In this document: positions 9,506 to 34,428 of the stretch, one piece after another
Layout: each line of letters opens with the position of its first letter
Numbering within the stretch: the first letter of the stretch is position 1
NCBI GenBank assembly: GCA_947476195.1
Contig: CANJPT010000044.1
Span: 1-34,428, forward strand
DNA length: 34,428 bases
From: Lewinellaceae bacterium
Lineage (GTDB): Bacteria; Bacteroidota; Bacteroidia; Chitinophagales; Saprospiraceae
Reading direction: 5' to 3'
Program-made: the position numbers and the translations under genes
Notes under the pieces: model-generated
Seen by the model: the letters and a program-made list of their open reading frames with translations, nothing else
Database searches by the model: none
What the model was told of the DNA's origin: nothing

Positions 9506-9519
9506 GTAACTGTCTTGTT

Positions 9520-9703: not shown

Positions 9704-9712
9704 CCTCGAATC

Positions 9713-10099: not shown

Positions 10100-10199
10100 A
10101 TTAGCCCTTCCCATTTTTGATTCTTCAAAATGAACACTGTGAGCCAATCGCTTACGGTGCGCTCCCTATTTGGCTACATTCATTATCCCTGCAACAGGT

Positions 10200-11474
10200 A
10201 TGAACCATAGAAATAATTCTTTCCCTGTTTACCCTCTGTACTTTCAAAACAGTAGGCTTTTACACTCAATTAGGCCCTTTGTGACCATATTGCTTGGACT
10301 TACCTGTTTTGTATTTGCGGGGAATGCGGTCGCGCAAACTGCACTTACAGAACAACAGGCCATTGAAATGCTGATAAAGCATCCGGCACTTCAAGCTGCT
10401 ACGCTCCGCGTAACGCAATATCAAACACTGGGCGGTGCAGTAAAACCTTGGGAGCCGACCCAGTTCTTCAACAATATAGCTGCTGACCCGGACTTGGGAA
10501 TGTTCGGCACAACGAGCTTTGGCGTAAATCAGGCTTTTCCTTCCGGTAAAAATGTTCGCGCCAATCGCCAACTAAATACTCAGAACATTCGCCAAAGCCA
10601 GGCACAATCCCTGTTGACTCAGCAGGATTTGGTGCGACAAGTAAAAGAGAAATATCAACGGTTGGGTTATCTGCAAATCAAAATTATCCTTTTTGCTCGC
10701 CTCGACAGTATCTATCAAAACTTAAACGCTGTAGCTGATACGCGCTATCGTACCGGGGATGTTTCACAGACCGAAAAGTTCGCTGTTCAGGACAAAGCCG
10801 CTCAAATCCGGTTACAAATTGAGACCGCTCGCAATGAGATTGTTTCCGGTCAATTTGCGCTGGGTCAACTACTGGGCTTGGGCCAGCAGGTTAAGGCTGT
10901 TGTTGATCCATTGACTGCAACAGGGTTTTCAATGGCAGATTCTACGCGATTAACCAGTTCGGCATACTCCATATATGCTCAAAGTGTCGTCGGTGTAGCT
11001 CAGGGGCAACAGGCTGTGCAACAGTCCGCACTTGCGCCAACTTTTTCGGCAGGAGTGTTTGGTCAATATTTGGGAAATGGCGCAGTATATCCAGGCTGGC
11101 AGTTAGGGTTAAATGTGCCTTTATTCAAAAAAGCACAGCAAAAGCAGGTTGAAGCAGCCTGTATTGGTGTGCAAATAGCGCAGTCAGAATATCAGAACGC
11201 TTTGCTTACCCAACAAACCCGGCTGACCGCCGCTGTTTTTGAATTCCAACGCTTTGAACTACTCACAAACTATTACATACGACAAGGCAAAACGATTGCT
11301 GACGAGCTGTTGCGCAGCAGTGTACTGAACTATCAGCAAGGTGAGATTGGGTATATAGAACATGTCCAAAACCTTGACCAAGCCTTACAAATTGAAATGC
11401 AATATTTGGAGAACCTGTTGCAAAAGAATCTGGCAGGCGTAGAAATTCAGTTTTTAACGAATCGGAACCAATAG
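10200..11474 (+). CDS. TolC-like outer-membrane efflux protein (stand-alone, derived from an RND-TolC fusion)
   Basis: A 424-aa protein from the ATG at 10200. The mature part matches the TolC half of the fusion protein (residues 1072-1450) along its whole length, including AADPDLGMFGTTS, QFALGQLLGLG, GQYLGNG and LNYQQGEIGY. The signal is residues ~27-46, ending AVAQ. Unusually, the ~26 residues before the signal (FPVYPLYFQNSRLL) resemble the end of the RND domain in the fusion (LPVLYSLFFKRTRFL), and the bases around the ATG resemble those around the fusion's ATG. This suggests that an RND-TolC gene lost its RND part in frame. It forms the channel of operon 2. The HMA gene follows 64 bp downstream. 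Confidence 0.9.
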   Translation: MNHRNNSFPVYPLYFQNSRLLHSIRPFVTILLGLTCFVFAGNAVAQTALTEQQAIEMLIKHPALQAATLRVTQYQTLGGAVKPWEPTQFFNNIAADPDLGMFGTTSFGVNQAFPSGKNVRANRQLNTQNIRQSQAQSLLTQQDLVRQVKEKYQRLGYLQIKIILFARLDSIYQNLNAVADTRYRTGDVSQTEKFAVQDKAAQIRLQIETARNEIVSGQFALGQLLGLGQQVKAVVDPLTATGFSMADSTRLTSSAYSIYAQSVVGVAQGQQAVQQSALAPTFSAGVFGQYLGNGAVYPGWQLGLNVPLFKKAQQKQVEAACIGVQIAQSEYQNALLTQQTRLTAAVFEFQRFELLTNYYIRQGKTIADELLRSSVLNYQQGEIGYIEHVQNLDQALQIEMQYLENLLQKNLAGVEIQFLTNRNQ

Positions 11475-11538
11475 GCCGGAATTCAGACTTGACCATCACA
11501 CATCCACTCATATTTTCAACTTAAACATTTTCTCAATC

Positions 11539-11892
11539 ATGAAAAAAATTCAATTCGTTTTCTCGCTTGTCGCTTTGTCCTTTGTCGCTTTGTCCTGCGG
11601 GCAGGAAAAGAATGGCACTGCTTTGTCCCTAACAACCGAAATTTTTTGTGACCACTGTCAGGATTGCGATTCCTGTAAGGGAAGGGTGGAAAAAGCACTA
11701 CGTTCAACTGAAGGCATTAACTCGGCAGAGATGAAAGTGGCCGAAAAGAAAATTGCTGTGACGTATGATCCGGCCAAAATCAACGAGCAGCAAATCAAAA
11801 CGGCTATAGCCAAAACAGGGTTTGCAGCAGGAGACATGGCGGCAGACCCTGCTGCCTATGACAATCTGGATGATTGCTGTAAGAAAAAGTAA
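11539..11892 (+). CDS. HMA-domain metal-binding lipoprotein
   Basis: A 117-aa protein with a lipoprotein signal ending ALSC (Cys20) and one heavy-metal-associated (HMA/CopZ/MerP-like) domain at residues ~30-100. The metal loop is enlarged, CDHCQDCDSCKGRVE, instead of the usual MxCxxC, and a second cluster, DDCCKKK, ends the protein. The domain keeps the ferredoxin-like pattern (GINSAEMKVAEKKIAVTYDPAKI, then IKTAIAKTGF). As a lipid-anchored periplasmic protein between the channel and pump genes, it probably delivers a soft metal such as Cu(I) or Hg(II) to the RND pump. The signal peptide contains a 12-base repeat (11569-11580, 11584-11595), a likely replication-slippage duplication. Confidence 0.85.
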   Translation: MKKIQFVFSLVALSFVALSCGQEKNGTALSLTTEIFCDHCQDCDSCKGRVEKALRSTEGINSAEMKVAEKKIAVTYDPAKINEQQIKTAIAKTGFAAGDMAADPAAYDNLDDCCKKK

Positions 11893-11903
11893 AGATGGTA
11901 TGT

Positions 11904-11932
11904 AGCGGGCGGCGCATGGTGTGTCGCCCGCT
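11904..11932. other. Intercistronic hairpin before the RND gene
   Basis: AGCGGGCG (11904-11911) pairs perfectly with CGCCCGCT (11925-11932) around a 13-base loop, in the 74-bp gap between the HMA and RND genes. No T-run follows, so it more likely stabilises or divides the operon mRNA than ends it. Confidence 0.45.
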
Positions 11933-11966
11933 GATGGTAAGTTGAAAATTCTAAAGCACATTATTC

Positions 11967-14900
11967 ATGATTGACCAGATTATTAAATTCTCCATTCAAC
12001 ATAAGATGGTTGTGGGACTGTTTGTCCTGGGTCTTATAGGTTGGGGCAGCTATTCGCTTGCACACCTGCCTATGGATGCCTTACCTGACATCACCAATAA
12101 CCAGGTGCAGGTGATTACGCTCGCACCAACGCTTGCTTCGCAAGAAGTAGAGCAATATGTAACCGCACCCATTGAAGCGGCTTGCGCCAACCTACCGGAC
12201 ATCATTGAAATGCGATCTATTTCCAGACTTGGGCTTTCGGTTATCACCATCGTTTTTAAAGATGAAATGAATCTCTATGAAGCCAGGCAATTGGTGAACG
12301 AACGGTTAAAAGAAGCCGAAGAACATATTCCAAAGGATGTAGGAAGTCCTGACCTGGCACCTGCCTCTACCGGCTTGAGTGATATTTACCAGTATGTGCT
12401 GCACACAAAGCCGGGGTACGACTCCCTTTATTCAGATATGGAATTGCGAACCATTCAGGATTGGATAGTCAAAAGACAGCTCTTAAGTGTGCCGGGAATT
12501 GCGGAGATCAATACGTTGGGCGGACACCTTAAACAGTATGAAATTGCTGTGGATGCCCAACAGCTTAAGGCCATGAATGTGACCATTCAAGAAGTATTTG
12601 AGGCACTTGAGAAGAACAATGAGAGTACGGGAGGCAGTTATATCGAAAAAGGGCCTAATTCCTATTTTATTCGTGGAATGGGTATGGTGGAAAATCTACA
12701 TGATATTGAAGCCATTGTAGTTAAGCAAACCGAAGGTGTTCCCATATTGGTACGCAATATTGCCAAAGTGCAGTATGGAAATGCGAACCGTTACGGGGCG
12801 GCTACACGTAACGGAGAAGGTGAAGTCGTGGTAGGCGTGGTCATGATGCGGAAAGGACAAAATTCGGCAGAAGTAGCGCAGGGGGTCAAGGAACGGGTAG
12901 AAATTATCAAAAAGTCCCTGCCGGAAGGAGTCATCATTGAGCCCTTTCTCGACCGTAGCGACTTGGTTGGGCGTGCCATTCAAACCGTCAGTACCAACCT
13001 TGCAGAAGGTGGTTTGATCGTGGTATTTATTCTGGTCTTATTTCTGGGTAATCTTCGGGCAGGTATGGTAGTTGCCTCGGTTATTCCGCTCGCGATGCTT
13101 TTTGCGCTTGGGATGATGCGCATGTTTGGTGTTTCGGGTAACCTGATGAGCCTGGGTGCAATTGACTTCGGTCTTATTGTGGATGGCGCGGTCATCATTG
13201 TCGAAAGTATCGTTCACCGTATCACAAGTAATACTTTAACGGGCAGGAATCGGCTCACACAAGTCGAAATGGATGAAGAGGTGTATGAAGCCTCCTCTCG
13301 TATCCGAACGTCTGCGGCCTTTGGAGAAATCATTATTCTCATTGTGTATTTGCCTATTTTGACGCTTACTGGTATTGAAGGGAAGATGTTTGGCCCAATG
13401 GCTCAAACCGTATCCTTTGCCATATTGGGTGCGTTTTTGCTTTCGCTGACCTACGTGCCAATGATGTCAGCCTTCTTTCTGAGTAAAAAAACGGTTCATA
13501 AGCGCAACATCTCAGACCGGATGATGGACTTGTTTCAGCGTGCCTATAATCCGCTGATTCATTTCGCACTGCGCCGGAAAATGGCTGTTGTGTTTACTTC
13601 AATAGTTTTATTTATAGGTAGCCTGATTTTGTTTTCGCGAATGGGGGGCGAATTTATCCCGACCCTCGAAGAGGGTGACCTCGCTTTGAATACCCGCATA
13701 ATGGCAGGTAGTTCGCTCACGCAAAATATCGCCATCCTTACAAGGCTCGAAGGAATGATAAGGTCGAAATTCCCGGAGGTAAAAGAAGTGGTATCCCGGA
13801 TCGGCGCGTCAGAAATACCGACCGATCCAATGTCGGTTGAAGTAGCTGATATAATTGTGGTATTGAAAGACAAAAAAGAGTGGACTTCTGCTAAGACCCG
13901 CGATGAGTTGGCAGATAAAATAAAAAAGGAAATCTCTAACCTGCCTGGAGTGAGTCTTGAAGTATCGCAGCCTATTCAGCTGCGCTTCAATGAGCTAATG
14001 ACTGGAGTACGTTCGGACGTAGCGATTAAAATTTTTGGCGATGACCTGGAGTTACTTGCACAAAAAGGAAGTGAAGCTATCCGGATCATTGAAAACATTC
14101 CTGGCATTGCCGACCTCAAAGCAGAACAGGTAACCGGCTTGCCACAGATTTCCGTGAAGTACAACCGGGAACAAATCGCACAATATGGTTTGAGCATTGA
14201 CGACATTAACCGGACGCTCCGAACCGCTTTTGCAGGGGAGGTAGCAGGGGTTGTTTTTGAAGGGGAAAAACGTTTTGATATGGTGGTTCGATTGGGTAAA
14301 GAACTCCGCTCAGATATTGACGACATTCGAAATCTGTCTATTCCAATTCCTGGAGGCGCACAAATTCCATTGAACCAGTTGGCAAAAATTGATTTTGGGG
14401 CAGCGCCCATGCAGATTTCACGGGACGACGGACGGCGACGTATGACCCTCGGTCTGAATGTCCGCAATCGCGATGTGCAATCGGTAGTAGAAGAAATCAA
14501 ATTGAAATTGGATAAAGAGCTTCAGCTGCCGCCTGGTTATTACCTGACTTACGGCGGACAGTTTGAAAATTTGATCGAAGCCAATAAACGGTTGATGATC
14601 GCCGTACCTGTGGCACTCTTACTGATTTTGGTACTGCTGTATTTTACGTTCAATTCTCTGCGGCATACACTCCTGATATTTTCAGCTATCCCACTTTCAG
14701 CCATCGGCGGCGTACTGGCTTTATGGTTGCGCGGAATGCCCTTCAGCATTTCGGCAGGAGTTGGGTTTATTGCCTTGTTCGGCGTGGCAGTGCTGAATGG
14801 TATCGTTTTGATTGCCTATTTCGACCAACTAAAAAAGGAGGGTATCACCGATATTAAAGAGAGGGTACTTACGGGTACGCGTGTCCGGCTCCGACCTGTA

Positions 14901-15104
14901 CTGATGACAGCCGCAGTGGCTTCGCTGGGCTTCTTACCCATGGCACTTTCTAACTCAGCGGGTGCAGAAGTACAACGGCCTCTGGCAACAGTGGTCATTG
15001 GCGGATTGATTTCTGCCACACTCCTTACGCTGTTGGTTTTACCAACACTTTACATGCTCTTCTCCGGGGAGAAAAAATCGCACACATTTTCAACTGAAAA
15101 ATAA
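11967..15104 (+). CDS. CusA/CzcA-family RND heavy-metal efflux pump
   Basis: A 1045-aa inner-membrane proton-driven pump of normal length, without a TolC fusion. It shows the canonical start (MIDQIIKFSIQHKMVVG), LPDITNNQVQ, the proton-relay helix DFGLIVDGAVIIVES, the duplicated membrane half with GMPFSISAGVGFIALFGVAV, and RLRPVLMTAAVASLGFLPMA. It is clearly paralogous to residues 1-1040 of the fusion at 3398. At the copper-Met position after 'TDP' it has Val rather than Met (from-memory alignment), so Zn/Co/Cd or Cu/Ag cannot be decided. The adaptor gene begins 6 bp after the stop, indicating co-translation. It is the pump of operon 2, using the TolC at 10200 as its channel. Confidence 0.93.
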   Translation: MIDQIIKFSIQHKMVVGLFVLGLIGWGSYSLAHLPMDALPDITNNQVQVITLAPTLASQEVEQYVTAPIEAACANLPDIIEMRSISRLGLSVITIVFKDEMNLYEARQLVNERLKEAEEHIPKDVGSPDLAPASTGLSDIYQYVLHTKPGYDSLYSDMELRTIQDWIVKRQLLSVPGIAEINTLGGHLKQYEIAVDAQQLKAMNVTIQEVFEALEKNNESTGGSYIEKGPNSYFIRGMGMVENLHDIEAIVVKQTEGVPILVRNIAKVQYGNANRYGAATRNGEGEVVVGVVMMRKGQNSAEVAQGVKERVEIIKKSLPEGVIIEPFLDRSDLVGRAIQTVSTNLAEGGLIVVFILVLFLGNLRAGMVVASVIPLAMLFALGMMRMFGVSGNLMSLGAIDFGLIVDGAVIIVESIVHRITSNTLTGRNRLTQVEMDEEVYEASSRIRTSAAFGEIIILIVYLPILTLTGIEGKMFGPMAQTVSFAILGAFLLSLTYVPMMSAFFLSKKTVHKRNISDRMMDLFQRAYNPLIHFALRRKMAVVFTSIVLFIGSLILFSRMGGEFIPTLEEGDLALNTRIMAGSSLTQNIAILTRLEGMIRSKFPEVKEVVSRIGASEIPTDPMSVEVADIIVVLKDKKEWTSAKTRDELADKIKKEISNLPGVSLEVSQPIQLRFNELMTGVRSDVAIKIFGDDLELLAQKGSEAIRIIENIPGIADLKAEQVTGLPQISVKYNREQIAQYGLSIDDINRTLRTAFAGEVAGVVFEGEKRFDMVVRLGKELRSDIDDIRNLSIPIPGGAQIPLNQLAKIDFGAAPMQISRDDGRRRMTLGLNVRNRDVQSVVEEIKLKLDKELQLPPGYYLTYGGQFENLIEANKRLMIAVPVALLLILVLLYFTFNSLRHTLLIFSAIPLSAIGGVLALWLRGMPFSISAGVGFIALFGVAVLNGIVLIAYFDQLKKEGITDIKERVLTGTRVRLRPVLMTAAVASLGFLPMALSNSAGAEVQRPLATVVIGGLISATLLTLLVLPTLYMLFSGEKKSHTFSTEK

Positions 15105-15110
15105 ATTAGG

Positions 15111-16403
15111 ATGAAAAAGGAAATTTCAATCTCAGTATTCGCCCTGTTTATAGGGTTCTATACATTTACTTCATGCAATCAGGCTGCACCGGCGGAAGAG
15201 GCAGAAGCCATTCCCAAACATGCCCATAAAGACACCATTGAGGAAGAAGTGAATGATCTGGTCATTACATCCCGGCAGTTCAAAGCCGCCGGGATCGAAT
15301 TGGGGAAACTTGGAACAACCAGCCTTACGGGAAGTATCAAAGTATCCGGCCAACTTGAAGTGCCGCCGCAAAATAAAGCAGGCATATCAGCCTATGTGGG
15401 TGGCATCATTAAATCTATTCAAGTGGCAGCAGGTAGTTATGTAAGGAAAGGCCAAACCGTAATGACACTTGAACACCCTGACTTTTTGAAACTTCAGGAG
15501 GAATACACCAGTACCAAGGGGAATCTGGTTTTTCTGGAACAGGATTACCAACGAAAGAAAGAACTGTTAGCAGCAAATGCGACACCTCAAAAGGCTTTTC
15601 AAGAGGCTGAATCAAGGTACAATGTTGAAAAAGGGCGCTTGGCATCACTTGCCAACCAACTGTCTATGTTGGGCATTTCAATTACCGAATTGAACAAAGG
15701 CAAAATTACCAACGTGCTGGCTTTGCGGTCGCCCATCCATGGCTATATCACGCAAGTGCATGGTAGTATCGGTGCGTACGCCGAACCCAACAAGATGCTT
15801 TTTGAAGTAGTGGACAATTCCAATATTCTGGTGCGCCTCGATGTGTACGAACGGGATTTTTACAAAATCAAAAAAGGACAGAAAATCAGCATCTTACTAC
15901 CCAATCAGGACAATGCCGAAATCGAAGGACGAATTGTGACCCTCGGCAAAGCGATGGACAATATGACCAAATCTATCGCGGTGTATGCTGAGATACGCAA
16001 CAACAAACGCCAAGACCTGATACCGGGCATTTTTGTGAACGCATTCATCTATGTGGATGGTCACGCTGCTGCTGTCGTACCTACTGAAACAGTCGTTCGT
16101 TCCGGCGAAAAGCAATACGTTTTTATGGTCAATGACGAGTTGTGCAGCAAGCCGAATGTACCGGGCAAAGACCCACACACGGTCAAAGATGCAGCCGGGA
16201 ATACCATACCGCTTGCTTACAGAATGATAGAAGTAAAAACGGGCGCGGAAGGTACAGGGGTGGTAGAGATCAATCCTGCACAAGAAATTAAGCCAACAGA
16301 CCAATTGGTCGTAAAAGGGGCTTATTTCCTGATGTCAGCTTTGAAAAGTGGCGAGACAGTTGGGTGCTGCGCCCCAGCAGAGGAAGAGGGGAAGAAGGAG
16401 TAA
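15111..16403 (+). CDS. RND periplasmic adaptor (CusB/CzcB-like) lipoprotein, operon 2
   Basis: A 430-aa membrane-fusion protein beginning 6 bp after the RND gene. It has a lipoprotein signal with lipobox FTSC (Cys22). The HlyD-type architecture is visible: barrel-sandwich half (VGGIIKSIQVAAGSYVRKGQ), helical hairpin (~residues 120-190), second half (ALRSPIHGYITQVHGSIGAY) and beta-barrel (LVRLDVYERDFYKIKKGQKI). The C-terminus ends GCCAPAEEEGKKE, a double-Cys tail not seen in the operon 1 adaptor, and a region near residue 345 (CSKPNVPGKDPH) also carries Cys and His. These could bind metal. A rho-independent terminator follows, so this is the last gene of operon 2. Confidence 0.92.
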   Translation: MKKEISISVFALFIGFYTFTSCNQAAPAEEAEAIPKHAHKDTIEEEVNDLVITSRQFKAAGIELGKLGTTSLTGSIKVSGQLEVPPQNKAGISAYVGGIIKSIQVAAGSYVRKGQTVMTLEHPDFLKLQEEYTSTKGNLVFLEQDYQRKKELLAANATPQKAFQEAESRYNVEKGRLASLANQLSMLGISITELNKGKITNVLALRSPIHGYITQVHGSIGAYAEPNKMLFEVVDNSNILVRLDVYERDFYKIKKGQKISILLPNQDNAEIEGRIVTLGKAMDNMTKSIAVYAEIRNNKRQDLIPGIFVNAFIYVDGHAAAVVPTETVVRSGEKQYVFMVNDELCSKPNVPGKDPHTVKDAAGNTIPLAYRMIEVKTGAEGTGVVEINPAQEIKPTDQLVVKGAYFLMSALKSGETVGCCAPAEEEGKKE

Positions 16404-16413
16404 TTTATAATCA

Positions 16414-16440
16414 GAGTGGCCTCCCACTCGCTTCTTTTTT
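16414..16440 (+). terminator. Rho-independent terminator of operon 2
   Basis: GAGTGG (16414-16419) and CCACTC (16424-16429) form a perfect 6-bp stem with a CCTC loop, followed by GCTTCTTTTTT. It lies 11 bp after the adaptor stop and 25 bp before the next ATG, so the downstream ATPase needs readthrough or its own promoter. Confidence 0.7.
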
Positions 16441-16464
16441 AACGCGGGTAGGCTTAACCAAAAT

Positions 16465-18528
16465 ATGCAATTTAAAGATATGAATAGCCAGCTGACTCCT
16501 CAACACGTCCACACCTACGACGCGCAAGGCCGAATGACCTGCTGCACACTCGAAGAAAAAATTCAGGTTAAATCTGGTCCGCCGCAATTGCAGCCGCATA
16601 GTGACGATGATGGTCACGACCACGACCATGAGGGCGAAGTGGCACATAGCCCCTGGCGTGAATACCTGCCCGCCATTATAAGTTTTGCGCTATTGCTGGC
16701 TGGCATCGCACTTGAATATTGGTTAAAAGCCGATTGGTTTACAGGATGGATACGCTTAGTGTGGTACCTGGCCGCCTACTTACCCGTCGGTCTGCCCGTG
16801 CTGAAAGAAGCGCTTGGAGCCATCGGGAAGGGGGAAGTTTTCACTGAATTTTTGCTGATGAGCATCGCCACTGTCGGTGCATTCGCCATTGGAGAATACC
16901 CCGAAGGTGTGGCCGTGATGCTGTTCTATGCAGTCGGGGAATTGTTCCAGACCGCTGCGGTGCGCCGCGCCAAAGGCAATATCAAAGCCTTGCTCGACGT
17001 GCGTCCCGATCAGGCTACCGTACTGCGCGATGGACAATTTCAGGAAGTAAAACCTGAAACGGTAGGGGTTGGAGACACTATCCGAGTCAAGCCAGGTGAA
17101 CGTGTACCGCTGGATGGAACATTGCTGGGTGAGTCATCTGCGTCCTTCGACACTGCTGCGCTCACTGGAGAGAGCAAGCCCCGCAGCATCGCCGCAGGCG
17201 AGTCGGTACTGGCTGGAATGGTGAGCTCCGAAAGCGTAGTGGAAGTGAAAGTGACCAAGCCATTTGGCGAAAGCAGCATCGCCCGAATTCTTGAGTTAGT
17301 ACAAAACGCTACGGCACGCAAAGCACCTACGGAGTTGTTCATCCGCAAGTTTGCCAAAGTGTATACCCCGATTGTGGTTTTGCTGGCGGTATTGCTCATT
17401 GTCGTGCCGTACTTCACCGTACCGGATTATGTGTTCCGTGATTGGCTTTACCGTGCGCTTATTTTCCTCGTCATTTCATGCCCGTGTGCGCTGGTCATAT
17501 CTATCCCACTCGGTTATTTTGGCGGAATCGGTGCGGCCTCCCGACAGGGCATTTTGTTCAAAGGCTCTAATTTCCTGGACCTGATGACAAAGGTTACGAC
17601 GGTCGTAATGGACAAAACCGGGACGCTGACGCATGGCGTTTTCAAGGTGCAAAAAATTGAAAGCGACGGAGTTGAAAAGAATGAGCTGCTGATTTTGGCT
17701 GCTGCGCTGGAGCAGCATTCCACTCACCCGGTGGCTAAGGCTCTCCTGCTCTATGCGGACGAACAAAAGTTGGATTGGAAAAAAGCGACCGTCGCCGAGG
17801 TAAAAGAAATTGCCGGGCATGGCTTGACCGGGCAAGTGAATGGAAAGCTGGTAATGGTCGGTAATACCAAGCTGCTTGAGAAATTCAAGATCGCTTACCC
17901 ACCCACGCTGGATGCAGAAGTAGACACGATTGCCGTGGTAGCCGTTGGCAATAAATATGTTGGCTTCATCACTATAGCTGACGAGATAAAACCTGATGCA
18001 GTTGACACCATTAAGCGCCTGCATTCCGCCGGAGTGCGCGAACTGGTGATGCTCTCCGGAGATAAGGACACAGTGGTACAGAAGGTCATCGCTACACTAG
18101 GGATCGAAAAAGGCTTTGGCGATCTGCTGCCTGAAGATAAAGTGAAAAAAGTGGAAGAACTGAAACGGGAGAACCCCAGTAGTACCATCGCTTTCATGGG
18201 TGATGGTCTCAACGACGCCCCGGTGCTTGCTGCTGCCGATGTTGGAATCGCTATGGGCGGTCTCGGCTCCGATGCAGCCATCGAAACGGCTGATGTGGTC
18301 ATCCAGAACGATGAGCCTTCAAAAGTGGCGACTGCTATTGCCATTGGGAGGGCTACCCGACGGGTGGTGTGGCAGAATATTGGGTTTGCCTTTGGAGTCA
18401 AAATCATCGTGCTGATACTCGGTGCGGGTGGCTTGGCTACGATGTGGGAAGCAGTTTTTGCGGACGTGGGCGTGGCGTTATTGGCAATTTTGAACGCGGT
18501 TCGGGTGCAAAGGATGAAGTTTTCATAA
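16465..18528 (+). CDS. Zn2+/Cd2+/Pb2+-type P1B ATPase (ZntA/CadA-like)
   Basis: A 687-aa metal-export ATPase. The N-terminus has a Cys pair (MTCC, residues 24-27) and a His/Asp-rich stretch (HSDDDGHDHDHEGE) instead of a full HMA domain. Catalytic motifs are complete: CPC in the membrane (Cys339-Pro-Cys341), TGES, DKTGT (Asp383), STHPVAKA, MLSGDKD and GDGLNDAP. The His-rich N-terminus and the ISIPLGYFGGIGAASRQGI region after CPC fit the zinc/cadmium/lead branch rather than Cu(I), though this is inferred. An in-frame ATG at 16480 is an alternative start. It follows the operon 2 terminator. Compare the ATPase at 918, which lacks the CPC cysteines. Confidence 0.92.
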   Translation: MQFKDMNSQLTPQHVHTYDAQGRMTCCTLEEKIQVKSGPPQLQPHSDDDGHDHDHEGEVAHSPWREYLPAIISFALLLAGIALEYWLKADWFTGWIRLVWYLAAYLPVGLPVLKEALGAIGKGEVFTEFLLMSIATVGAFAIGEYPEGVAVMLFYAVGELFQTAAVRRAKGNIKALLDVRPDQATVLRDGQFQEVKPETVGVGDTIRVKPGERVPLDGTLLGESSASFDTAALTGESKPRSIAAGESVLAGMVSSESVVEVKVTKPFGESSIARILELVQNATARKAPTELFIRKFAKVYTPIVVLLAVLLIVVPYFTVPDYVFRDWLYRALIFLVISCPCALVISIPLGYFGGIGAASRQGILFKGSNFLDLMTKVTTVVMDKTGTLTHGVFKVQKIESDGVEKNELLILAAALEQHSTHPVAKALLLYADEQKLDWKKATVAEVKEIAGHGLTGQVNGKLVMVGNTKLLEKFKIAYPPTLDAEVDTIAVVAVGNKYVGFITIADEIKPDAVDTIKRLHSAGVRELVMLSGDKDTVVQKVIATLGIEKGFGDLLPEDKVKKVEELKRENPSSTIAFMGDGLNDAPVLAAADVGIAMGGLGSDAAIETADVVIQNDEPSKVATAIAIGRATRRVVWQNIGFAFGVKIIVLILGAGGLATMWEAVFADVGVALLAILNAVRVQRMKFS

Positions 18529-27412: not shown

Positions 27413-28543
27413 TCAATTTGGATTTATCAAATGCATCTCTTCAACCTTCTTTTGTTCCCATTTGAAGAATGAATTGTAGTCATTCCAATAATGCGTCCAA
27501 GCTTCATTTAGAGCTTTGAAGATAAAGCCGTTTTGATTTGTAGCGATGTTGCAGTGAATACCTACCACTGCTTTAAAACCGAACAATGCGCATTCTCGCA
27601 AAAGTTCAGTTGGATAAGCAAATGAATGTAATGTATTTTTCTGTCGTGTCAGAACCCCTTGGACTTCCTGCCATTTTTTTTCAATTGAATCTTTTTGGGA
27701 CTGTAGTTGCATATATTCGAGCACATATAATATCACTTGCATTCTTGCTTCATCATTTGGATGTGTTGATTTTGAATGTAAAGGCACTTCAAATGGGTTG
27801 CTGCCACGTTTCATGGCCAAGTGTATATGCGCCCATCCATAGGCGGCTCCTGCTGTACATACTCCGAAAATATCACAGAAAAATTCAATCAACCAATTGA
27901 TCCAGTTTTTCTTCCACGCCTCATAATTGGGTACGGAGCCGCTGTTATTTATACGCTGGTCTTCCAAAATTACCCGGTCAAAATGGCCGGAGACAACATT
28001 GTAGAATGCTTTGGCACGCTCCTGAAATAAATTTATCCGATCATCATTTTCAGTCCAAAACAGTGGATGAGCAAGTTCATGGTACAGATCAGGAAGATGC
28101 AGGAGAAAATCACACTCCAGTAATGGGACGCACAAAAGATTGAATTGGGGGTAAATCTGATAATAGTTAGTAGACAGAGCAGAGACTGTTGGCGGAACAG
28201 GAATGGGGTAATTAATTTCCTTACAAATTTGTTGTACGAATTTGTTAATTTTTATATCGTCATCATTATGTCTACTGATGGCAGATACGGCAACATTCTC
28301 AATTATATCAATTTCCCAAATAATGTTTTTTAGGTCTCTTAATCTGGCCGATTGATTGAGGGGAACCTGATACACTGGTGCAGAGTAAAGGTCATTCAAA
28401 AGTGAGATTTTATCGTTGATCAATTTCAAGCACCCATGTGCAAGTACCTGAAAATGAAGGGGTGGCGGAGTAGGGAAGCGGGTTTTTAGGCGTTTAGCTC
28501 GTTCGATTGTTTCTGCAATGATGGCCTCCAAATAATGTTGCAT
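27413..28543 (-). CDS. HExxH (gluzincin-like) zinc metalloprotease, last gene of the Argonaute operon
   Basis: A 376-aa protein from the ATG at 28543 (a TTG two codons earlier is possible). It is mainly helical and has no signal peptide, so it acts in the cytosol. The zinc site is YHELAH (HExxH at residues 155-159), followed 61 residues later by EFFCD (ExxxD, residues 220-224), the likely third ligand of a gluzincin fold, and by STHPNDEAR (residues 259-267), which resembles the HP..R motif of M48-type peptidases. I do not recognise a named family. The gene starts 28 bp after the small gene in the same direction. Argonaute operons I know do not contain a protease. It could be an effector, or a regulator that cleaves the XRE repressor in the ImmA/ImmR manner. 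Confidence 0.7.
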   Translation of the reverse strand: MQHYLEAIIAETIERAKRLKTRFPTPPPLHFQVLAHGCLKLINDKISLLNDLYSAPVYQVPLNQSARLRDLKNIIWEIDIIENVAVSAISRHNDDDIKINKFVQQICKEINYPIPVPPTVSALSTNYYQIYPQFNLLCVPLLECDFLLHLPDLYHELAHPLFWTENDDRINLFQERAKAFYNVVSGHFDRVILEDQRINNSGSVPNYEAWKKNWINWLIEFFCDIFGVCTAGAAYGWAHIHLAMKRGSNPFEVPLHSKSTHPNDEARMQVILYVLEYMQLQSQKDSIEKKWQEVQGVLTRQKNTLHSFAYPTELLRECALFGFKAVVGIHCNIATNQNGFIFKALNEAWTHYWNDYNSFFKWEQKKVEEMHLINPN

Positions 28544-28571
28544 ATGCAAGCTTGGGTTGGGGATTCAATAA

Positions 28572-28955
28572 TTAGCCGTTAAATCGCATACGCGAATAAG
28601 CATTGGTACATTCTTCATTTAGAGCTTCAGCCAGCAATGTGAGTTTTTGGAGCACCTCTGGGTTTGTTCCCATTTTACGGTCAAAGTGGGATGTCAAATC
28701 ATGAAGAAACACCTCCGAGGTTTGACTCCGCAAATGCTTTTTAAGATAGCTCTGAATAATTTGTGCTACCATTTGAATTTGGAAACTCATACTCGATGGG
28801 TCGGACAATTGATGCAAAAAAGTTTGCAACTCTTCTGCCGATTCTGGTGAAACAGCGGTTGAATCGTAGTTAGCTTCCACCAAAAACCGATTGAGGATTC
28901 CCAGATACTTGCTGGAAACGTCATATATGTTAGAATTTAGGCCTACATCACTCAT
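28572..28955 (-). CDS. Small helical protein of unknown function in the Argonaute operon
   Basis: A 127-aa protein that I do not recognise. It is predicted almost entirely helical, acidic at the N-terminus, with SPESAEELQTFLHQL, FQIQMVAQIIQSYLKKHL and LQKLTLLAEALNEE as amphipathic helices. It has no signal or transmembrane segment. It begins 5 bp after the Argonaute stop and ends 28 bp before the protease ATG, so its expression is tied to both. A physical adaptor between Argonaute and the protease, or an inhibitor of the protease, would fit, but neither can be shown from sequence. Confidence 0.55.
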   Translation of the reverse strand: MSDVGLNSNIYDVSSKYLGILNRFLVEANYDSTAVSPESAEELQTFLHQLSDPSSMSFQIQMVAQIIQSYLKKHLRSQTSEVFLHDLTSHFDRKMGTNPEVLQKLTLLAEALNEECTNAYSRMRFNG

Positions 28956-28960
28956 AATTG

Positions 28961-31396
28961 TCAGATTTGAAAAAGTTCGTTTTGAATGATATTGTCAAGT
29001 TCGTTGTCCTCATCTTCCCATCCGAGACTTTGGTGCTCATCCTCGTCATACTCGCTTGCATGATCGCGCAATCGATTGTCGAGCAGTTTTGTAGTTATGG
29101 GTAACCGAGAACAAAAATCTGGTTTGGTAAAAGCAAGGGTGGAAAGGTAAAATAAGTCTCGCAATGCCTCTTCGAATACCAAATTGCCCGAAACGAACCG
29201 GATACACAATGGCTTTGATGTACCGGGTGTGCGAAACTCAGAGCCCGTTGTACAGAGGTAAGCCAATCGGGTCTCGGGTAAATACCAAGTTCCAATGGCT
29301 GGATTATTATAGGATTCTCGATTTCTGTCCCGGTCAAACCAGGGCTGAATTAACCGTACCGGAGTCATAGATGTTTTGGCGATTTCCAAAATGGTGACAG
29401 TCGCATCGTTCGCCAGATAGCCTTCTTTCTTTAGGCGTTTTTCAGCGGTGGATATGCCATCCTCCTCCGTGTCGAAAATGCGCCCATCACGGTGGATGAC
29501 CACAGTTTTCAAAGGTTGATTCTTATTAAATTTCCATTCCTCTACGACCTGTTCATAAATGATCTGCTTAATGTTATCTTTAGTTAGTTTTTCGTGTTGC
29601 TTCGACTGGACCATTTCCGTCCGAAGGTAGCGGCAATATTTGTCTACCATTACAAATCCGGCAAGGTGGTTTTTCACGTCAATGCCTATGGTCAAATCAG
29701 CATTCAATGGAGTATTAAGCCGGAACGGAAACTTGTTGTTTAGCAACAGAACTTTGGTCAGCGCCACATTTTGAACGTACCCACGGTATTTGCCTGCTGA
29801 TCCTTCCCGCAAGCGATATTCCGTTTTTCCTTCGTGGGTGCGCTCCTCCCGAAAGCAGGAAGTAATGGTTGAGGTATGAATGATAGAAACGTGAATGTTG
29901 GATTTATAAAGTTCACGAGTGATAAGCGCGGCCAAACGATCATGCTTTCGCAGCGCCTTCCCGTCGTTTGGGATCATTACTACAGCATGGGCCTTGAACC
30001 TGTCCTGCACTTTGGCTTTCACGGCGTCCACAATACGATTACCGACCTCGACATACGTGGCGTGGCGTGAAGGATGATTCTCATACCACTCACATTGCGG
30101 GTCGAATGTGCCCCATCGGTACATTTTCTGTACTTGCTGTTGCAGGTCGCTTTTGAATTTCCTTCCCACCGTATCAAAAACAGAGCGCGGTAAAAACAAA
30201 TATTGCGGTCCGAGCTCGGTTTGTTCTGGTTTTAAAAATCCCGTTTTGCCATCTGTGAGTTTATCCATTCGGGCCTTGGCAAACAGGTTTGGTTTGAAGT
30301 TATAATCACGTAAACGCAGTTCAATAGAGTCGCCTAAAACAAATTCAGGAAAGTCAAATCTGGGTAATTGGAGACGCAATGGGGTTTTCCTAATGCTCAG
30401 GCTTTTCGATCCAAAGCTAATATTTTGAAGAAATTCGTGTACAAACCAGCCGGATTTCTCAAGCCTGACACTTGGTGGCAAAATAGACTGCTGGTGATTC
30501 GCTGCCGCTGCCGGATCGTTGGTACTAAAGACTTCAAAACAAAGACCAGCTGGGACTGCACGAGTATCTTTACTTGAGGTGTGGTAAATCAATACTGAAG
30601 CATCTTCCGGTAGGTTTGCCAGAGCAGACGGATGGTTGCCAGGAGTTCTTTCCCGAACGGCCTCGTGTAAGGATACTTGGCGATTTAATACAGGGTCATC
30701 ATAAATATATCCTGACGCTGTCATGTCACTCCATTCATCCAGACGCAATTCGTACCAGTGATCGCCGAAAGGATAAAAAACAATTTTCCCTTTGTAATCT
30801 CGATCAAAAACGGGCTTGGTCAGATAAGTCGGGAGTGGTTGATCTGAAGCATATTTTTTTGTCACGTCTACACAAATTCCCCAGTCTTTTCCCAAATCAA
30901 TTACGCGAACAATAAATCCAGTGAATGTGGCTACGCCATTTTGCTTCTCGGATTTTTTCAAGAAAAACGGATGCCCAGCTTTAGGTTGCCACAACTGAGC
31001 TTGTTTCGTCAATTGGCCCTGCAAACTGAATTGGAGAAAGCGTTGACAGATTACCCGCGTGTTTTCATTGGTGCTGGAAAAGTCCAGTTGCTCCACCATG
31101 CCGGTATCATGAAAATAAAGAAGGTTACCTCCGCGACGAGGATATTCATTCGGCACTTTACCGATGATGTCGGCTTCGTTACGCGTCACAAGTAATGCTG
31201 CATCCTCTCGGACAATCACCGTCACAGGATGCCTTAGTTTTTGGCTCAATCGCTTTATCAGTGTCTGACGGTCCTGTTGGAAGGACGGCGAATCAGGCAG
31301 TAGGCCACCAATTTTGAACAGGCGATATTCTGCGCTGAGTTCAAGAGTGTTCCCAATCAAAAAGATTGGGCTGACGTTCAGTCGGTTTTTGTTCAT
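28961..31396 (-). CDS. Long prokaryotic Argonaute (pAgo) with intact catalytic residues
   Basis: An 811-aa protein. The N-terminal/PAZ-like half (residues ~1-400) includes GFIVRVIDLGKDWGICVDVT (~160-179) and a HWYELRLDE segment. The MID region (~470-510) has AVVMIPNDGKALRKHDRLAA. The PIWI domain (~565-780) shows IGIDV (Asp573), HEKL (Glu602, probable glutamate finger), VIHRDGR (Asp637) and ITTKLLDNR (Asp773). That is a full DEDD set, so it should cleave nucleic acid. The C-terminus (SEYDEDEHQS) is acidic. Guide and target types cannot be told from sequence. The start overlaps the nuclease gene by 56 bp. pAgos are defence proteins against plasmids and phages; a Cas4-like nuclease partner is known for some long pAgos. 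Confidence 0.93.
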   Translation of the reverse strand: MNKNRLNVSPIFLIGNTLELSAEYRLFKIGGLLPDSPSFQQDRQTLIKRLSQKLRHPVTVIVREDAALLVTRNEADIIGKVPNEYPRRGGNLLYFHDTGMVEQLDFSSTNENTRVICQRFLQFSLQGQLTKQAQLWQPKAGHPFFLKKSEKQNGVATFTGFIVRVIDLGKDWGICVDVTKKYASDQPLPTYLTKPVFDRDYKGKIVFYPFGDHWYELRLDEWSDMTASGYIYDDPVLNRQVSLHEAVRERTPGNHPSALANLPEDASVLIYHTSSKDTRAVPAGLCFEVFSTNDPAAAANHQQSILPPSVRLEKSGWFVHEFLQNISFGSKSLSIRKTPLRLQLPRFDFPEFVLGDSIELRLRDYNFKPNLFAKARMDKLTDGKTGFLKPEQTELGPQYLFLPRSVFDTVGRKFKSDLQQQVQKMYRWGTFDPQCEWYENHPSRHATYVEVGNRIVDAVKAKVQDRFKAHAVVMIPNDGKALRKHDRLAALITRELYKSNIHVSIIHTSTITSCFREERTHEGKTEYRLREGSAGKYRGYVQNVALTKVLLLNNKFPFRLNTPLNADLTIGIDVKNHLAGFVMVDKYCRYLRTEMVQSKQHEKLTKDNIKQIIYEQVVEEWKFNKNQPLKTVVIHRDGRIFDTEEDGISTAEKRLKKEGYLANDATVTILEIAKTSMTPVRLIQPWFDRDRNRESYNNPAIGTWYLPETRLAYLCTTGSEFRTPGTSKPLCIRFVSGNLVFEEALRDLFYLSTLAFTKPDFCSRLPITTKLLDNRLRDHASEYDEDEHQSLGWEDEDNELDNIIQNELFQI

Positions 31397-32324
31397 GATT
31401 ACAAATTTTTCTGAATGAACAGGTTAAGCAATTTTCGGGGTCGTCGGTTTGTTCGAGGTCTTGCAAGTCGTCAAAGTTGTAGGAATCTTCAGAGCCCGCA
31501 AGTTGGAGCCTGTATGCGCCTTCGATGATGAATTCTCTCGTCTGATTAAGATAGTCTTCTGTTACAGGATAATACCGCAAGTCATTTTTCAGTAATTGAT
31601 ATTCAACGAGCCGGTAATCTGTCAGGAGAAATTTTTTCCAATTGGCTCGTTGGCGGTTTTGCGGCAACGTTAGGTGTAGACCCAATGCATACACCAATAG
31701 TTGCTGATTATATCTTTTGACCGGTTCAGCGTGTACTTTCCAGTCAACAATTAATGGGGCTTGCCCCTTGGAATACACGATTAGATCGGGAGTGCCAATT
31801 ATGGAGAAGCCTTCGAGTTTATAGTTCAATGTTCTTTGAGCATCGAGGTGTTCAGCACTGCGGAGCATTTCTACAAAAGGCTCATTCTGGAAAAAGTTTG
31901 TCAAGGCAATTTCGATATCTAACCAAGCCCCATCCAGTTGCTCTTCGCTAAGTGGTATATCGTATTCATGTTCGAGCAATGGGGAAAACTCTTCAGGCAA
32001 ATGACTCTTTTTATTGTCTGCATCACGGTATTCGTGATTTTGAGAAAAGCGCAATCTTTTTTCAAAAAGCCTAAGCGCAACTTCTAAAGCATCATCAAGT
32101 GTAAATCGCTGCTTTTGGTTGAAGGCTATTACCATTTCGTTGCTTAACACATCATCCACCAGTTGGCCACGCCACGAAGCCAATGTTCGTAAATGTGATA
32201 GCATCGTGATTTCACGACGGTATGGATCATTTTTCACATTGCCACTTTTTGCTTTGGTCATGAAGTACCATTGCAATTGACACTTTTGAAAAGTGCGGTA
32301 GCCGCTGATTGAGAAAGCTTTCAT
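31341..32324 (-). CDS. Cas4/RecB-like PD-(D/E)XK nuclease with Fe-S cysteine set
   Basis: A 327-aa cytosolic nuclease. The catalytic core reads IIGTPDLIV (Asp180), IVDWK (Asp194 and Lys196) and QQLLVYALGL (Gln208 and Tyr212), the PD-(D/E)XK plus QxxxY layout of RecB, AddB and Cas4. One Cys near the N-terminus (Cys15, in FQKCQLQWYF) and three near the C-terminus (Cys299, Cys302, Cys308; CX2CX5C) match the four-Cys iron-sulfur clamp of Cas4/AddB. Position 57 has Asp where many RecB nucleases have His. The start overlaps the XRE stop by 4 bases (ATGA), and its 3' end overlaps the Argonaute start by 56 bp. It may process guides or destroy invader DNA; I infer this from the pairing. Confidence 0.88.
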   Translation of the reverse strand: MKAFSISGYRTFQKCQLQWYFMTKAKSGNVKNDPYRREITMLSHLRTLASWRGQLVDDVLSNEMVIAFNQKQRFTLDDALEVALRLFEKRLRFSQNHEYRDADNKKSHLPEEFSPLLEHEYDIPLSEEQLDGAWLDIEIALTNFFQNEPFVEMLRSAEHLDAQRTLNYKLEGFSIIGTPDLIVYSKGQAPLIVDWKVHAEPVKRYNQQLLVYALGLHLTLPQNRQRANWKKFLLTDYRLVEYQLLKNDLRYYPVTEDYLNQTREFIIEGAYRLQLAGSEDSYNFDDLQDLEQTDDPENCLTCSFRKICNHEQKPTERQPNLFDWEHS

Positions 32325-32662
32325 TTTCTTCGATTTCGGATAAATTTGAGGTAATCCAAGAGTTCCAATTCTTCTTCATCCGTCACAGCACCCAACCGTC
32401 CGTGTGCGGCGATTGGTTCTGTACTTTCTACCATTCCATTGTTTTGCGGCACGGGATACCCTACTTTTTCCATGAGCGTTTCATATGACACATCGTACAA
32501 CTGGGCGAGTTTGTAAAGGTTAAGCGGAGAGGGTTGTTTCACCTTTCCCGTTTCCAACTGGCTGAGGTAGGCGTTGGAAATCTCGGTCTGTTTTTCAACC
32601 TCGCGCAGTGTTAGGTTTTTGGCTTCTCGGAGGGCTTTGATGTAAGTGCCGTAGTTAGACAT
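32321..32662 (-). CDS. XRE-family helix-turn-helix regulator of the Argonaute operon
   Basis: A 113-aa protein with a Cro/CI-type HTH at residues ~7-63 (LREAKNLTLREVEKQTEISNAYLSQLE). A Pro-rich link leads to a C-terminal acidic-then-basic helix (TDEEELELLDYLKFIRNRRK). It is the first gene of the operon, overlapping the nuclease start by 4 bases. Just upstream is a Bacteroidota promoter flanked by two 20-bp operator-like repeats, which it probably binds to repress its own operon. Regulators of this layout also pair with HExxH proteases (ImmR/ImmA), and one is encoded at the far end of this operon. Confidence 0.88.
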   Translation of the reverse strand: MSNYGTYIKALREAKNLTLREVEKQTEISNAYLSQLETGKVKQPSPLNLYKLAQLYDVSYETLMEKVGYPVPQNNGMVESTEPIAAHGRLGAVTDEEELELLDYLKFIRNRRK

Positions 32663-32680: not shown

Positions 32681-32732
32681 TTGCTAAGTTTGTCGAGCAA
32701 AGATATAGATCATTGCTAGGTTTAGCAAGCAA
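32681..32732. promoter_or_regulatory. Two operator-like 20-bp repeats upstream of the XRE gene
   Basis: TTGCTAAGTTTGTCGAGCAA (32681-32700) and TTGCTAGGTTTAGCAAGCAA (32713-32732) match at 16 of 20 positions. Both are bounded by TTGCT and AGCAA half-sites, and both are preceded by ATCA. Starts are 32 bp apart, about three helical turns, so two dimers could bind the same face. The second contains a perfect TTGCTA-GGTT-TAGCAA palindrome. One copy overlaps the -33 element and the other covers the start of transcription. Confidence 0.65.
32698..32728 (-). promoter_or_regulatory. Promoter of the XRE-nuclease-Argonaute-protease operon
   Basis: On the minus strand TATCTTTG (32705 to 32698) is an exact TAnnTTTG -7 box. 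A TTG -33 element (32728 to 32726) lies 20 bp upstream, the spacing expected in Bacteroidota. Transcription should start about 7 bases downstream, leaving a leader of some 30 bases before the ATG at 32662. Confidence 0.6.
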
Positions 32733-33271: not shown

Positions 33272-34428
33272 TTAAATGAGGTTCTGGTTGGCTGCTTCAA
33301 TCACCTCGTTATCAAAACTTTTCAAGTAGGTCTGTGTGATTGATTCCGATTCATGTCCCAAAGCTTCGCTGATGATCGCGACCGGCACACCACTGTTTTT
33401 CAAAACAGTAGCGTACGTGTGGCGGGCTACATAGGTGGTCAAAGGAATATCCAGACCAGAAAGCGTTGCGATTTGTTTCAGGCTTTTGTTGATGCAGCCC
33501 GTCATTTTGTGAATCCGGTTATCAATCTGTACGGGTGAAAGGTGCTTGGTCCGATCCAGAATTGGAAAAATGTAGTCTTCTGTGTTGCCGCCTGTATGGG
33601 TATGGTATCGCTCCATGATTTTTACGGCAGGCTCCATAAGTTTAATATTAAAGCCTTTTCCGGTTTTAGCCCGAATGTAATAAATCCGGTCTTGCTTGAG
33701 GTTCGACCAGCGTAGCATGGCAATATCAGTAAGATTTATGCCCTGCACGAAATAGCTGAACATGAAAACATCCTGAGCCAATTGTGCTCTGGAATCTTCG
33801 GATAAATCCAGGGCAGCAATCCTTTGAATTTCGGCCTTGCTGATTGCTCTTTTGCGTGTATCGGTATCGAATTTTGAAATTTTAAAGTCCCGAAAAGGGT
33901 AATGGGTCAACGAGACAAGTTTTTCTTGAACGGCTTTGTTGTACAATGATCTAAGGGTGCGGAAGTACACCGAAATGGAAGTTTCCAAAAGACCTTGACT
34001 GCGCAAATGTGTCTCAAACCGATTCAGGAAGTTGAGGTCAATATCTGAGAACAGTAAGGTTTTAATTTTGGGTTGGAAGGTTTTCAAAGCCCGGAACGTA
34101 TCACGATACACATTGGCGTTTCCTACTTTTTTCTGTATGACCAAGCGTTGAATATACTCGCTGAAGAATGCGAGTACATCCGTTTTCCCTTTGGGCTTGT
34201 GAACAGCGGTTAAGAGGCTTTCTGATGAAAACTCTTTCTCGTTCATTTTCAAGTCCAAAACCTGCGTCTGCAATTCACTCACCCGTTTTTGAACAATCGC
34301 TTCGATTTTCAATTTTTCCGGATGGTTTCGCTTGGGGGTGCATTTTTTGAAATCCCATTGATCCGGGTGACAACTCAACCCGAGCGCCTCATATTTGCGT
34401 TTGCCGTCCTTGGTGACAACCAACATCA
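33272..34428 (-). CDS. Tyrosine recombinase/integrase, Bacteroidota type (N-terminus outside window)
   Basis: At least 384 residues, open at the window's right edge, so the start is missing. It has an N-terminal Arm/SAM-like DNA-binding part (DVLAFFSEYIQRLVIQKK) and a catalytic domain. Visible catalytic motifs are YVARHTYAT (Arg of box II), LGHESESITQTYL with the His and the nucleophilic Tyr, and a Lys in the beta-hairpin (IRAKTGKGF). The usual Arg of box I is replaced: the site reads YFVQGINLTDIAML where TGxR is expected, as in a group of Bacteroidota recombinases including IntDOT relatives. It lies 610 bp upstream of the Argonaute operon on the same strand and suggests that the module is on an integrated mobile element. 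Confidence 0.88.
   Translation of the reverse strand, partial: MLVVTKDGKRKYEALGLSCHPDQWDFKKCTPKRNHPEKLKIEAIVQKRVSELQTQVLDLKMNEKEFSSESLLTAVHKPKGKTDVLAFFSEYIQRLVIQKKVGNANVYRDTFRALKTFQPKIKTLLFSDIDLNFLNRFETHLRSQGLLETSISVYFRTLRSLYNKAVQEKLVSLTHYPFRDFKISKFDTDTRKRAISKAEIQRIAALDLSEDSRAQLAQDVFMFSYFVQGINLTDIAMLRWSNLKQDRIYYIRAKTGKGFNIKLMEPAVKIMERYHTHTGGNTEDYIFPILDRTKHLSPVQIDNRIHKMTGCINKSLKQIATLSGLDIPLTTYVARHTYATVLKNSGVPVAIISEALGHESESITQTYLKSFDNEVIEAANQNLI

Follow-up and report, generated by a model that had tools for sequence, protein, structure and literature searches.

The small helical protein and the M48-like metallopeptidase candidate of a D-R class Argonaute operon: constant members and a possible proteolytic switch

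The window analysed here (positions 1-34428 of contig C44, CANJPT010000044.1, from a Lewinellaceae genome of 4.76 Mb in 224 contigs) carries on its minus strand five genes, encoding an XRE family regulator, a Cas4-like nuclease, a prokaryotic Argonaute (pAgo), a small all-helical protein and a candidate metallopeptidase. The small gene and the protease gene are part of the core of this operon and no accident of the locus. The five-gene arrangement is more than chance, because the genes co-occur, are inherited together and show low ratios of non-synonymous to synonymous substitution rates (dN/dS). Operons of this pAgo class with a nuclease and a helix-turn-helix (HTH) or sigma factor gene are already described; the small protein and the M48-like peptidase, as constant members, are provisionally new. 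The two may act together as a proteolytic switch by which the operon disposes of its own regulator, a reading to which we assign a probability of about 45%.

The five open reading frames (ORFs) are those claimed in the original prediction, which had been made from the sequence of the window. The regulator (32321..32662, 113 amino acids) matches Pfam HTH_3 (8e-14) and PADLOC capH (1.5e-10), the latter perhaps only through a general HTH likeness. It is followed by the nuclease (31341..32324, 327 amino acids; PADLOC Aga_Cas4-like_Nuc, 4.2e-99; Pfam PDDEXK_1, 1.1e-12), the long catalytic pAgo (28961..31396, 811 amino acids; PADLOC pAgo_II, 5.9e-234), the small gene (28572..28955, 127 amino acids), recognized by its five-helix model and its position upstream of the protease, and the protease gene (27413..28549). 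The first two genes overlap by 4 bp and the nuclease and pAgo genes by 56 bp, and 5 bp separate pAgo from the small gene. The start of the protease gene is ambiguous: a TTG at 28549 gives 378 amino acids and a gap of 22 bp from the small gene, an ATG at 28543 gives 376 amino acids and the gap of 28 bp originally predicted. The five genes are probably read from a single transcript.

The pAgo is the sole PIWI match in its source genome, and its predicted DEDD tetrad (D573, E602, D637, D773) is identical in 63/63 aligned full-length pAgos, the window's included. Its nearest solved structures are 7r8f, 7r8h and 7r8k (E-values from 2e-97 to 4e-97), labelled 'Argonaute' in the table and, as we read PMC9360449, structures of PliAgo; a plasmid of Runella slithyformis DSM 19594 encodes a relative at 36% identity. 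Judged by sequence, the protein is a member of the PliAgo group of the D-R class, since the DEDD tetrad, the kinship with PliAgo and RslAgo and an operon with nuclease and HTH genes are all found. According to the same paper, D-R Argonautes are a separate class, strictly DNA-guided and RNA-cutting, the biological function of which was left open by the authors; RslAgo, PliAgo, PnyAgo and HpeAgo use DNA guides to cleave RNA, and PnyAgo alone showed weak DNA cleavage, after long incubation. By analogy with these studied relatives, DNA-guided RNA cleavage would be the activity of the window pAgo. The earlier view of a long pAgo paired with a Cas4-like nuclease is thus kept as to the pairing, and changed as to the role, from plasmid and phage interference to kinship with DNA-guided RNA cutters. 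The nuclease shows the features of Cas4-like iron-sulphur enzymes, as had been proposed: within 61 aligned rows, that of the window among them, Cys15, Cys299, Cys302 and Cys308 are present in all, and the PD-(D/E)XK residues D180, D194 and K196 in 98%.

Related loci were collected by scanning an alignment of the protease against 84,980 species genomes. Of the 87 candidate stretches obtained, 68 were relatives; merged with 12 earlier loci, they gave 66 distinct loci (L numbers below; G numbers are genomes), the window itself not being counted. Seven near-copies at 97% identity, six loci at contig ends (L048, L058, L072, L076, L077, L090) and a decayed one (L095) had been merged or excluded. In these 66 protease loci, all with enough upstream DNA, the small gene lies just upstream of the protease in every case, a pAgo is found in 61, a full-length nuclease in 59 and an XRE family gene in 41; 12 of the 13 rows of the protease alignment came from pAgo loci, and one peptide pattern was also used, so that proteases free of pAgo are probably under-sampled in these figures. 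The small gene was identified by profile in 65 loci, and set as present by hand in L021, from position and alignment. The seven loci lacking a full-length nuclease include L056, which is cut by a contig end. To judge from record titles, the loci span Bacteroidota, Chloroflexota, Planctomycetota, Pseudomonadota, Acidobacteriota, Cyanobacteriota, Nitrospirota and other phyla.

Surveys starting from the pAgo covered 395 Bacteroidota genomes and plasmids. In the genomes, pAgo was found in 7 and the protease in 8, with both in 7 (Fisher p = 2.8e-14), and all seven show the order nuclease, pAgo, small gene, protease, the small gene of L021 being again placed by position and alignment. A single-sequence pAgo search returned the same seven genomes as the profile search, one of them over part length, plus a fragment of about 100 residues with stops in G338. 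Six plasmid records match the window pAgo, the sixth, from the archaeon Salinigranum, over only 29% of the query; nuclease, pAgo and small gene precede the protease in 5/5 protease-bearing records. No relative was found in viral contigs, searched with the pAgo and a second query, or in phages, searched with the protease. The original prediction was to fall if the protease and the small gene were absent beside all related pAgos; the opposite is found (66/66 for the small gene, 61/66 for pAgo), with the same gene order in many phyla.

The genes also share their history. Pairwise distances of pAgo and protease correlate with r = 0.91 over 33 loci of group 1, the XRE-type loci, and with r = 0.95 over a set of 22 loci made of group 2, the sigma-type loci, plus L013 and L062, which have no strong XRE match; under permutation the correlation never rose above 0.40. 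The correlation between protease and small protein is 0.90, and the tightest co-variation is seen among pAgo, small protein, nuclease and peptidase, with XRE distances following the other genes less closely (0.55-0.66). All five genes show dN/dS values of 0.05-0.16 when the window is compared with its relatives L033 and L030. The value for L067 against L071 was not used, as few changes stand behind it.

The HExxH and ExxxD motifs originally reported for the last gene were located as HELAH (residues 157-161, counted from the TTG; 28067..28081, minus strand) and E222-D226 (27872..27886, minus strand), to which we add HPxxxxR at H263-R269 (27743..27763, minus strand), with P264 as its second residue. 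All three are invariant in the 61- and 57-row alignments and occur in 73/73 full-length proteases, a set including near-copy pairs, at identities to the window protein down to 18%. Together they form the motif set of M48 peptidases, and were also seen in the M48 proteins used for comparison. When the protease core was aligned with 25 M48 peptidases of related genomes, the three motifs aligned in order (E 1.9e-4, probability 22%); default settings gave E 1.1e-4, probability 56% and a score of 35.7, to be compared with a maximum of 23.1 for 150 column shuffles, 11.7 for the reversed profile and 16-19 for four unrelated profiles. No match exceeds the curated Pfam M48 cut-off, and only one of 57 members touches the M48 model (E 0.011). 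By its motifs and profile the protein is therefore M48-like, rather than M48, because the Pfam cut-off is not reached; peptidase activity is probable. PADLOC, Pfam and NCBIfam returned nothing over cut-off for the protease, and its model (mean pLDDT 95.7, mostly helical) found no Foldseek match at E 0.001 in PDB or BFVD.

Membership in M78, the family of ImmA, IrrE and CapP, was considered and is not supported: there was no Pfam M78 match, and none among the 25 families shown for the 57 members. M48 and M78 are kin families. A direct hhalign comparison of the protease with M78 gave E 0.6 (11 usable of 25 M78 loci), and it carries little weight, because the M48-M78 control likewise failed (0.81); only the positive M48 result counts. 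Two unusual copies of the protease were noticed. In L058:419-2764 it is fused to an extra region of about 400 amino acids with a second HExxH-like stretch (HEFLH) and DYDAD, the piece scanned having no Pfam family over cut-off, and L095:7763-8546 is a decayed copy in a Chryseobacterium genome, the other four genes not being found within the stretch examined.

The small protein is predicted as a five-helix bundle (pLDDT 92.9). Its sequence is weakly conserved over 58 rows, except at the start and at two positions near the end. No family over cut-off was found for it in Pfam, NCBIfam or PADLOC, and no PDB match by Foldseek at E 0.001. Weak Pfam matches (DPC2 at 0.0017, and others) vary between members and were taken as chance.

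Around this core three regulatory types can be told apart: XRE in group 1, a sigma factor in group 2, and a distant third type. The XRE has a conserved C-terminal tail, approximately R-G-x-x-T-x-E-E-E-x-x-L-x-x-Y-L-x-F-x-R in the alignment. In group 2 (Pedobacter nyackensis and kin) the sigma factor (Sigma70_r4_2 at 9.2e-9 in the one member scanned) is accompanied by a second protein of about 200 amino acids, which over part of its length resembles the XRE HTH (hhalign E 3.7e-4, probability 36%, a value without shuffle control); its tail is similar to the XRE tail, 3 of 200 shuffles being as good, and this likeness between the tails of different groups is no more than suggestive. The third type, represented by L021 and by L159 from a KSB1 genome, comes with an XRE of its own, a nuclease, a pAgo, a small gene diverged and recognized by position and by eye, and a protease. 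In L062 only a decayed-looking XRE remnant is seen (4096-4357), its tail legible by eye, ahead of full-length nuclease, pAgo, small gene and protease ORFs.

Two putative 18-bp operators precede the XRE gene of the window on the minus strand. Operator 1, TGCTTGCTAAACCTAGCA (32714..32731), matches TGCTYGNNAAAYYTAGCA with at most one mismatch, and operator 2, TGCTCGACAAACTTAGCA (32682..32699), lies 32 bp from it, just ahead of the XRE start. With the same tolerance TGCTYGNNAAAYYTAGCA has exactly two sites in the genome of the window, both at the operon promoter, and none in the control. The general pattern, TGCT-N10-AGCA, stands ahead of XRE in 40 of 43 group 1 loci. It has 56 sites there, including one within coding letters; 200 shuffled versions averaged 0.97 sites and never exceeded 5. 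These 43 loci include the window and the near-copy pairs L034/L078 and L067/L071, three near-copies having been dropped. Sixteen loci have two sites, with a spacing of 32 bp or 18-20 bp in those pairs that were read and with promoter-like letters by eye, and the three misses (L039, L060, L064) show near-matches by eye. A related exact pattern was followed in 11 other genomes and matched at the system in six (G424, G427, G428, G429, G431, G432). Three more matches lie elsewhere in G424, the one match in G426 is ahead of a second XRE that adjoins an M78 gene, the five identical matches in G433 look like a single repeated element, and no match was seen in G425, G430 or the sigma-type G434. The KSB1 genome holds three more operator-like sites, which were set aside, not being at a plausible gene start. 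The other types have sequences of their own: GTAACC-N4-6-(C/G)ATA precedes the sigma gene in 15 of 18 group 2 loci, the other three having CATT by eye, and occurs 23 times, those 15 included, in the 580,940 bases of both strands of the same loci; both members of the third type show, by eye, GAGTTGAC...CAACTCAACA. Of the single promoter originally proposed for the window operon there remains the conserved operator pair, found before XRE only, whereas a generic promoter scan of the operon region did no better than shuffles (9 sites against a mean of 11.3).

Six loci lack a pAgo (L017, L035, L065, L067, L071, L074), and an HTH regulator, the small gene and the protease are present in all of them; contigs of metagenome-assembled genomes can be misassembled or incomplete. 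XRE, small gene and protease follow each other with no gene between them in L035, L065 and L074, the protease of the latter being cut by a contig end. L067 and L071, from two related bins, have an ORF of 109 amino acids matching the start of the nuclease between XRE and small gene, and loss is favoured here because this nuclease stub remains. L017 (5202-8819) has a sigma factor, an HTH protein and then, where nuclease and pAgo normally sit, a GIY-YIG-type protein, so labelled from annotated relatives, no family model matching it, before small gene and protease; a protein-kinase gene comes after. On the protease tree the absence of pAgo needs five changes, at least four of them forced by starred branches, by a quick method which does not distinguish gain from loss. 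Five of the six genomes have no other pAgo of the D-R kind, and the KSB1 genome has a separate system of the third type. The original prediction had treated the small protein and the protease as added parts of one defence system. They do belong to the operon and are co-inherited with it; they are not added parts, because they are kept with the regulator where pAgo is absent, and are instead its most constant ones.

Relatives of the operon's regulator are also found with other peptidases. The genome of L044 has a second XRE (L161:9581-10021) that is 42-47% identical to the XREs of pAgo operons, tail included, is preceded by TGCTTGACAAACTTAGCA, letter-identical to the site of L053, L067, L069 and L070, and overlaps an M78 peptidase gene (25.1 bits, cut-off 22). 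Another, at L063, is 46-48% identical, has the tail and is followed by a HELGH gene with a marginal M78 match (21.0 bits, cut-off 22). L057 has a clear M78 gene, but its XRE is distant (24-29% over 76-78 residues) and counts little. Nine second XREs were listed by script, two of them (L044, L057) with an adjacent HExxH gene; L063 was found separately. The pairs of XRE and M78 genes, similar to CapH and CapP, cover L161:8677-10021, L063:2447-3982 and L057:132-1342, each near a ThiF/E1-like gene and a D-R pAgo system. The family of the regulator thus seems to go elsewhere with CapP-type genes, its partner here being an M48-like peptidase with the small protein; two cases of XRE with M78, both near pAgo systems, are a lead and not proof. 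ThiF/E1-like genes occur within about 8 kb of some 10 distinct loci of several phyla (L010, L012, L017, L034/L078, L044, L055, L057, L062, L063, L090), three of them confirmed as ThiF, a count without background rate which leaves out a weak match at L038 and may include generic ThiF relatives; several of these loci add multiubiquitin, E2-like or DUF6527 genes.

In the operon as we picture it, a control layer, in which the XRE would repress from twin 18-bp operators over the promoter, is joined to a nucleic-acid layer, in which Cas4-like nuclease and D-R Argonaute would use short DNA guides to cut matching RNA, and to a proteolytic layer formed by the inseparable pair of helical-bundle protein and M48-like metallopeptidase. 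Infection or DNA damage would produce short single-stranded DNA (ssDNA), which, free or as guide bound to the Argonaute, might activate the pair; the activated pair would cut the C-terminal part of the HTH regulator, repression would end, and nuclease and Argonaute would be made in bulk. We infer repression by the XRE, the peptidase activity, its substrate, its trigger and defence itself. The trigger is plausible, by analogy with CapH+CapP and DdrO/PprI, because D-R pAgos use DNA guides. Cleavage of the regulator fits the data somewhat better than proteolysis triggered by target recognition, as first proposed. It is preferred because the regulator accompanies the pair in all six loci without pAgo, because the operators are conserved in so many loci, because XREs closely related to this one adjoin CapP-type peptidase genes, and because the combination of an HTH repressor with an HExxH peptidase is proven elsewhere and responds to ssDNA, the guide material of D-R Argonautes. 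An HTH regulator accompanies the pair in all three pAgo types as well.

PMC13373217 and PMC10904395 describe such ssDNA-activated peptidase and HTH repressor pairs in control of immune or stress operons: CapH+CapP and DdrO/PprI (IrrE) likewise bring repressor and HExxH peptidase together in one locus. Unlike in these systems, the peptidase here is M48-like and not M78, has a constant helical partner and lies at the far end of the operon, and cleavage of the regulator would be by analogy.

Several observations weigh against the regulator as substrate. A regulator, small protein and peptidase on their own would control only themselves, as might sooner be expected of an independent toxin-like unit, and odd for a switch. 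The protease-XRE correlation (0.62) is lower than those of the protease with pAgo (0.91) and with the small protein (0.90), though XRE is short. The type of regulator varies (XRE, or sigma factor with HTH protein), the peptidase is constant; the latter is last in the operon, away from the regulator, and gives no match to M78, to which the peptidases of the known pairs belong. The XRE tail, common to XREs with another peptidase, may serve dimerization only. Finally, L062 has only its apparent XRE remnant, and L013 no adjacent regulator.

A close second, possible but on balance unlikely, is that the peptidase itself acts as effector. It would be restrained by the small protein, or carried by it to the Argonaute, recognition of target RNA would free it, and it would cut host or invader proteins in the style of abortive infection, the trio being a toxin-antitoxin-like unit viable without Argonaute. 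Self-only regulation would be natural for such a pair, and the occurrence of the trio without pAgo in four or more branches of the protease tree is what an addictive pair would be expected to show; small gene and peptidase are inseparable (66/66) and co-vary tightly with pAgo, between which and the peptidase the small gene sits in pAgo loci. The trio is, however, without sign of a sensor, the pAgo is itself catalytic and may need no other effector, some trios may be decaying, as the nuclease stub of L067/L071 indicates, and the XRE's relation to CapH-type pairs speaks for a switch. The tight operon, and the close co-variation of pAgo, small protein, nuclease and peptidase, would also suit a peptidase that matures or turns over the operon's pAgo or nuclease, limiting toxicity or freeing them from a bound state; as this leaves unexplained why peptidase and small protein are kept where pAgo and nuclease are absent, it is improbable. 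About as improbable, or slightly more so, is a last gene of zinc-peptidase ancestry with another task, such as scaffold or nucleic-acid binding, and no proteolysis: the mostly helical fold without Foldseek match to solved structures at E 0.001, and the single member in 57 that touches Pfam M48, would agree with it, but three metal or catalytic motifs are all kept down to 18% identity and the M48 match beats all 150 column shuffles. That small and protease genes are mere passengers of a mobile defence island, unlinked to pAgo, is nearly refuted by the counts, given the same order and strand in many phyla, the co-inheritance and the low dN/dS, in spite of the integrase-like gene next door (33272-34426, by eye) and the five loci on plasmids.

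The closest described systems include the D-R pAgo operons of PMC9360449, with the same pAgo class, the same upstream nuclease and an HTH (group 1) or sigma factor (group 2) gene; the parts of the text available name these alone, and neither a small nor a protease gene. The word 'protease' does not occur in the main text of that paper, the operon figure and the supplement, which may draw unnamed genes, being outside the count. In two of the species studied there, R. slithyformis (L010) and P. nyackensis (L079), matched at species level, both loci carry small gene and peptidase. Long-B pAgo systems likewise pair a pAgo with associated partner genes, but their pAgos are catalytically inactive, and the passages of PMC10620215 at hand mention no peptidase partner. 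The 2018 pAgo survey (PMC6299218) has no occurrence of protease or peptidase in its main text. Hachiman and AVAST nuclease-protease pairs are a further case in which an antiviral operon has taken up a protease beside a nuclease; in the available part of PMC12799240, a trypsin-like protease activates an MBL nuclease, 'metalloprotease' does not occur and 'argonaute' is in the reference list only. On the Runella plasmid, a very long 'serine protease' gene beside an MBL-fold gene (L010:14912-20069) recalls these pairs. In the titles and abstract starts searched, no description of a pAgo with a metalloprotease was found, a provisional result as subscription papers and preprints were barely covered.

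Guided RNA targeting, a protease and a transcriptional response, the latter suggested here by the sigma-type loci, are also combined in the Calp system of type III CRISPR (CalpL protease, CalpT, CalpS), as far as the accessible descriptions go. Sigma and anti-sigma roles are known for Calp. Its protease differs in being Lon-type and activated by cyclic nucleotides, and no cyclase was seen here.

A peptidase with its partner, present in almost all relatives studied, offers concrete handles on the function of D-R Argonautes, and a presumed immune system may include a protein-cutting step. If the peptidase answers to guide DNA or to target recognition, Argonautes would be added to CRISPR and CBASS as systems that direct proteolysis. 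Where Argonaute is missing, the trio of regulator, small protein and peptidase is a candidate for a system that stands alone. It is conceivable, if doubtful, that regulator, helical adaptor and M48-like peptidase form a free-standing switch or immune unit of a new family, to which Argonaute and nuclease, or in one locus a GIY-YIG protein, would be added as exchangeable sensors; the D-R Argonautes would in that case be the first Argonaute systems whose output is proteolytic. Tests of the proposed mechanism are within reach, because RslAgo and PnyAgo have already been purified by others.

Directly upstream of the operon, on the minus strand, lies the tyrosine-recombinase or integrase-like gene mentioned above, and the GC content of the operon is 43.3%, compared with 47.6% for the window to its left; the two features suggest mobility of the operon. 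Farther away, at 3350-18528, two large RND-type efflux genes (1466 and 1045 amino acids) and their neighbours have, by eye and from ORF starts, the look of a heavy-metal resistance cluster.

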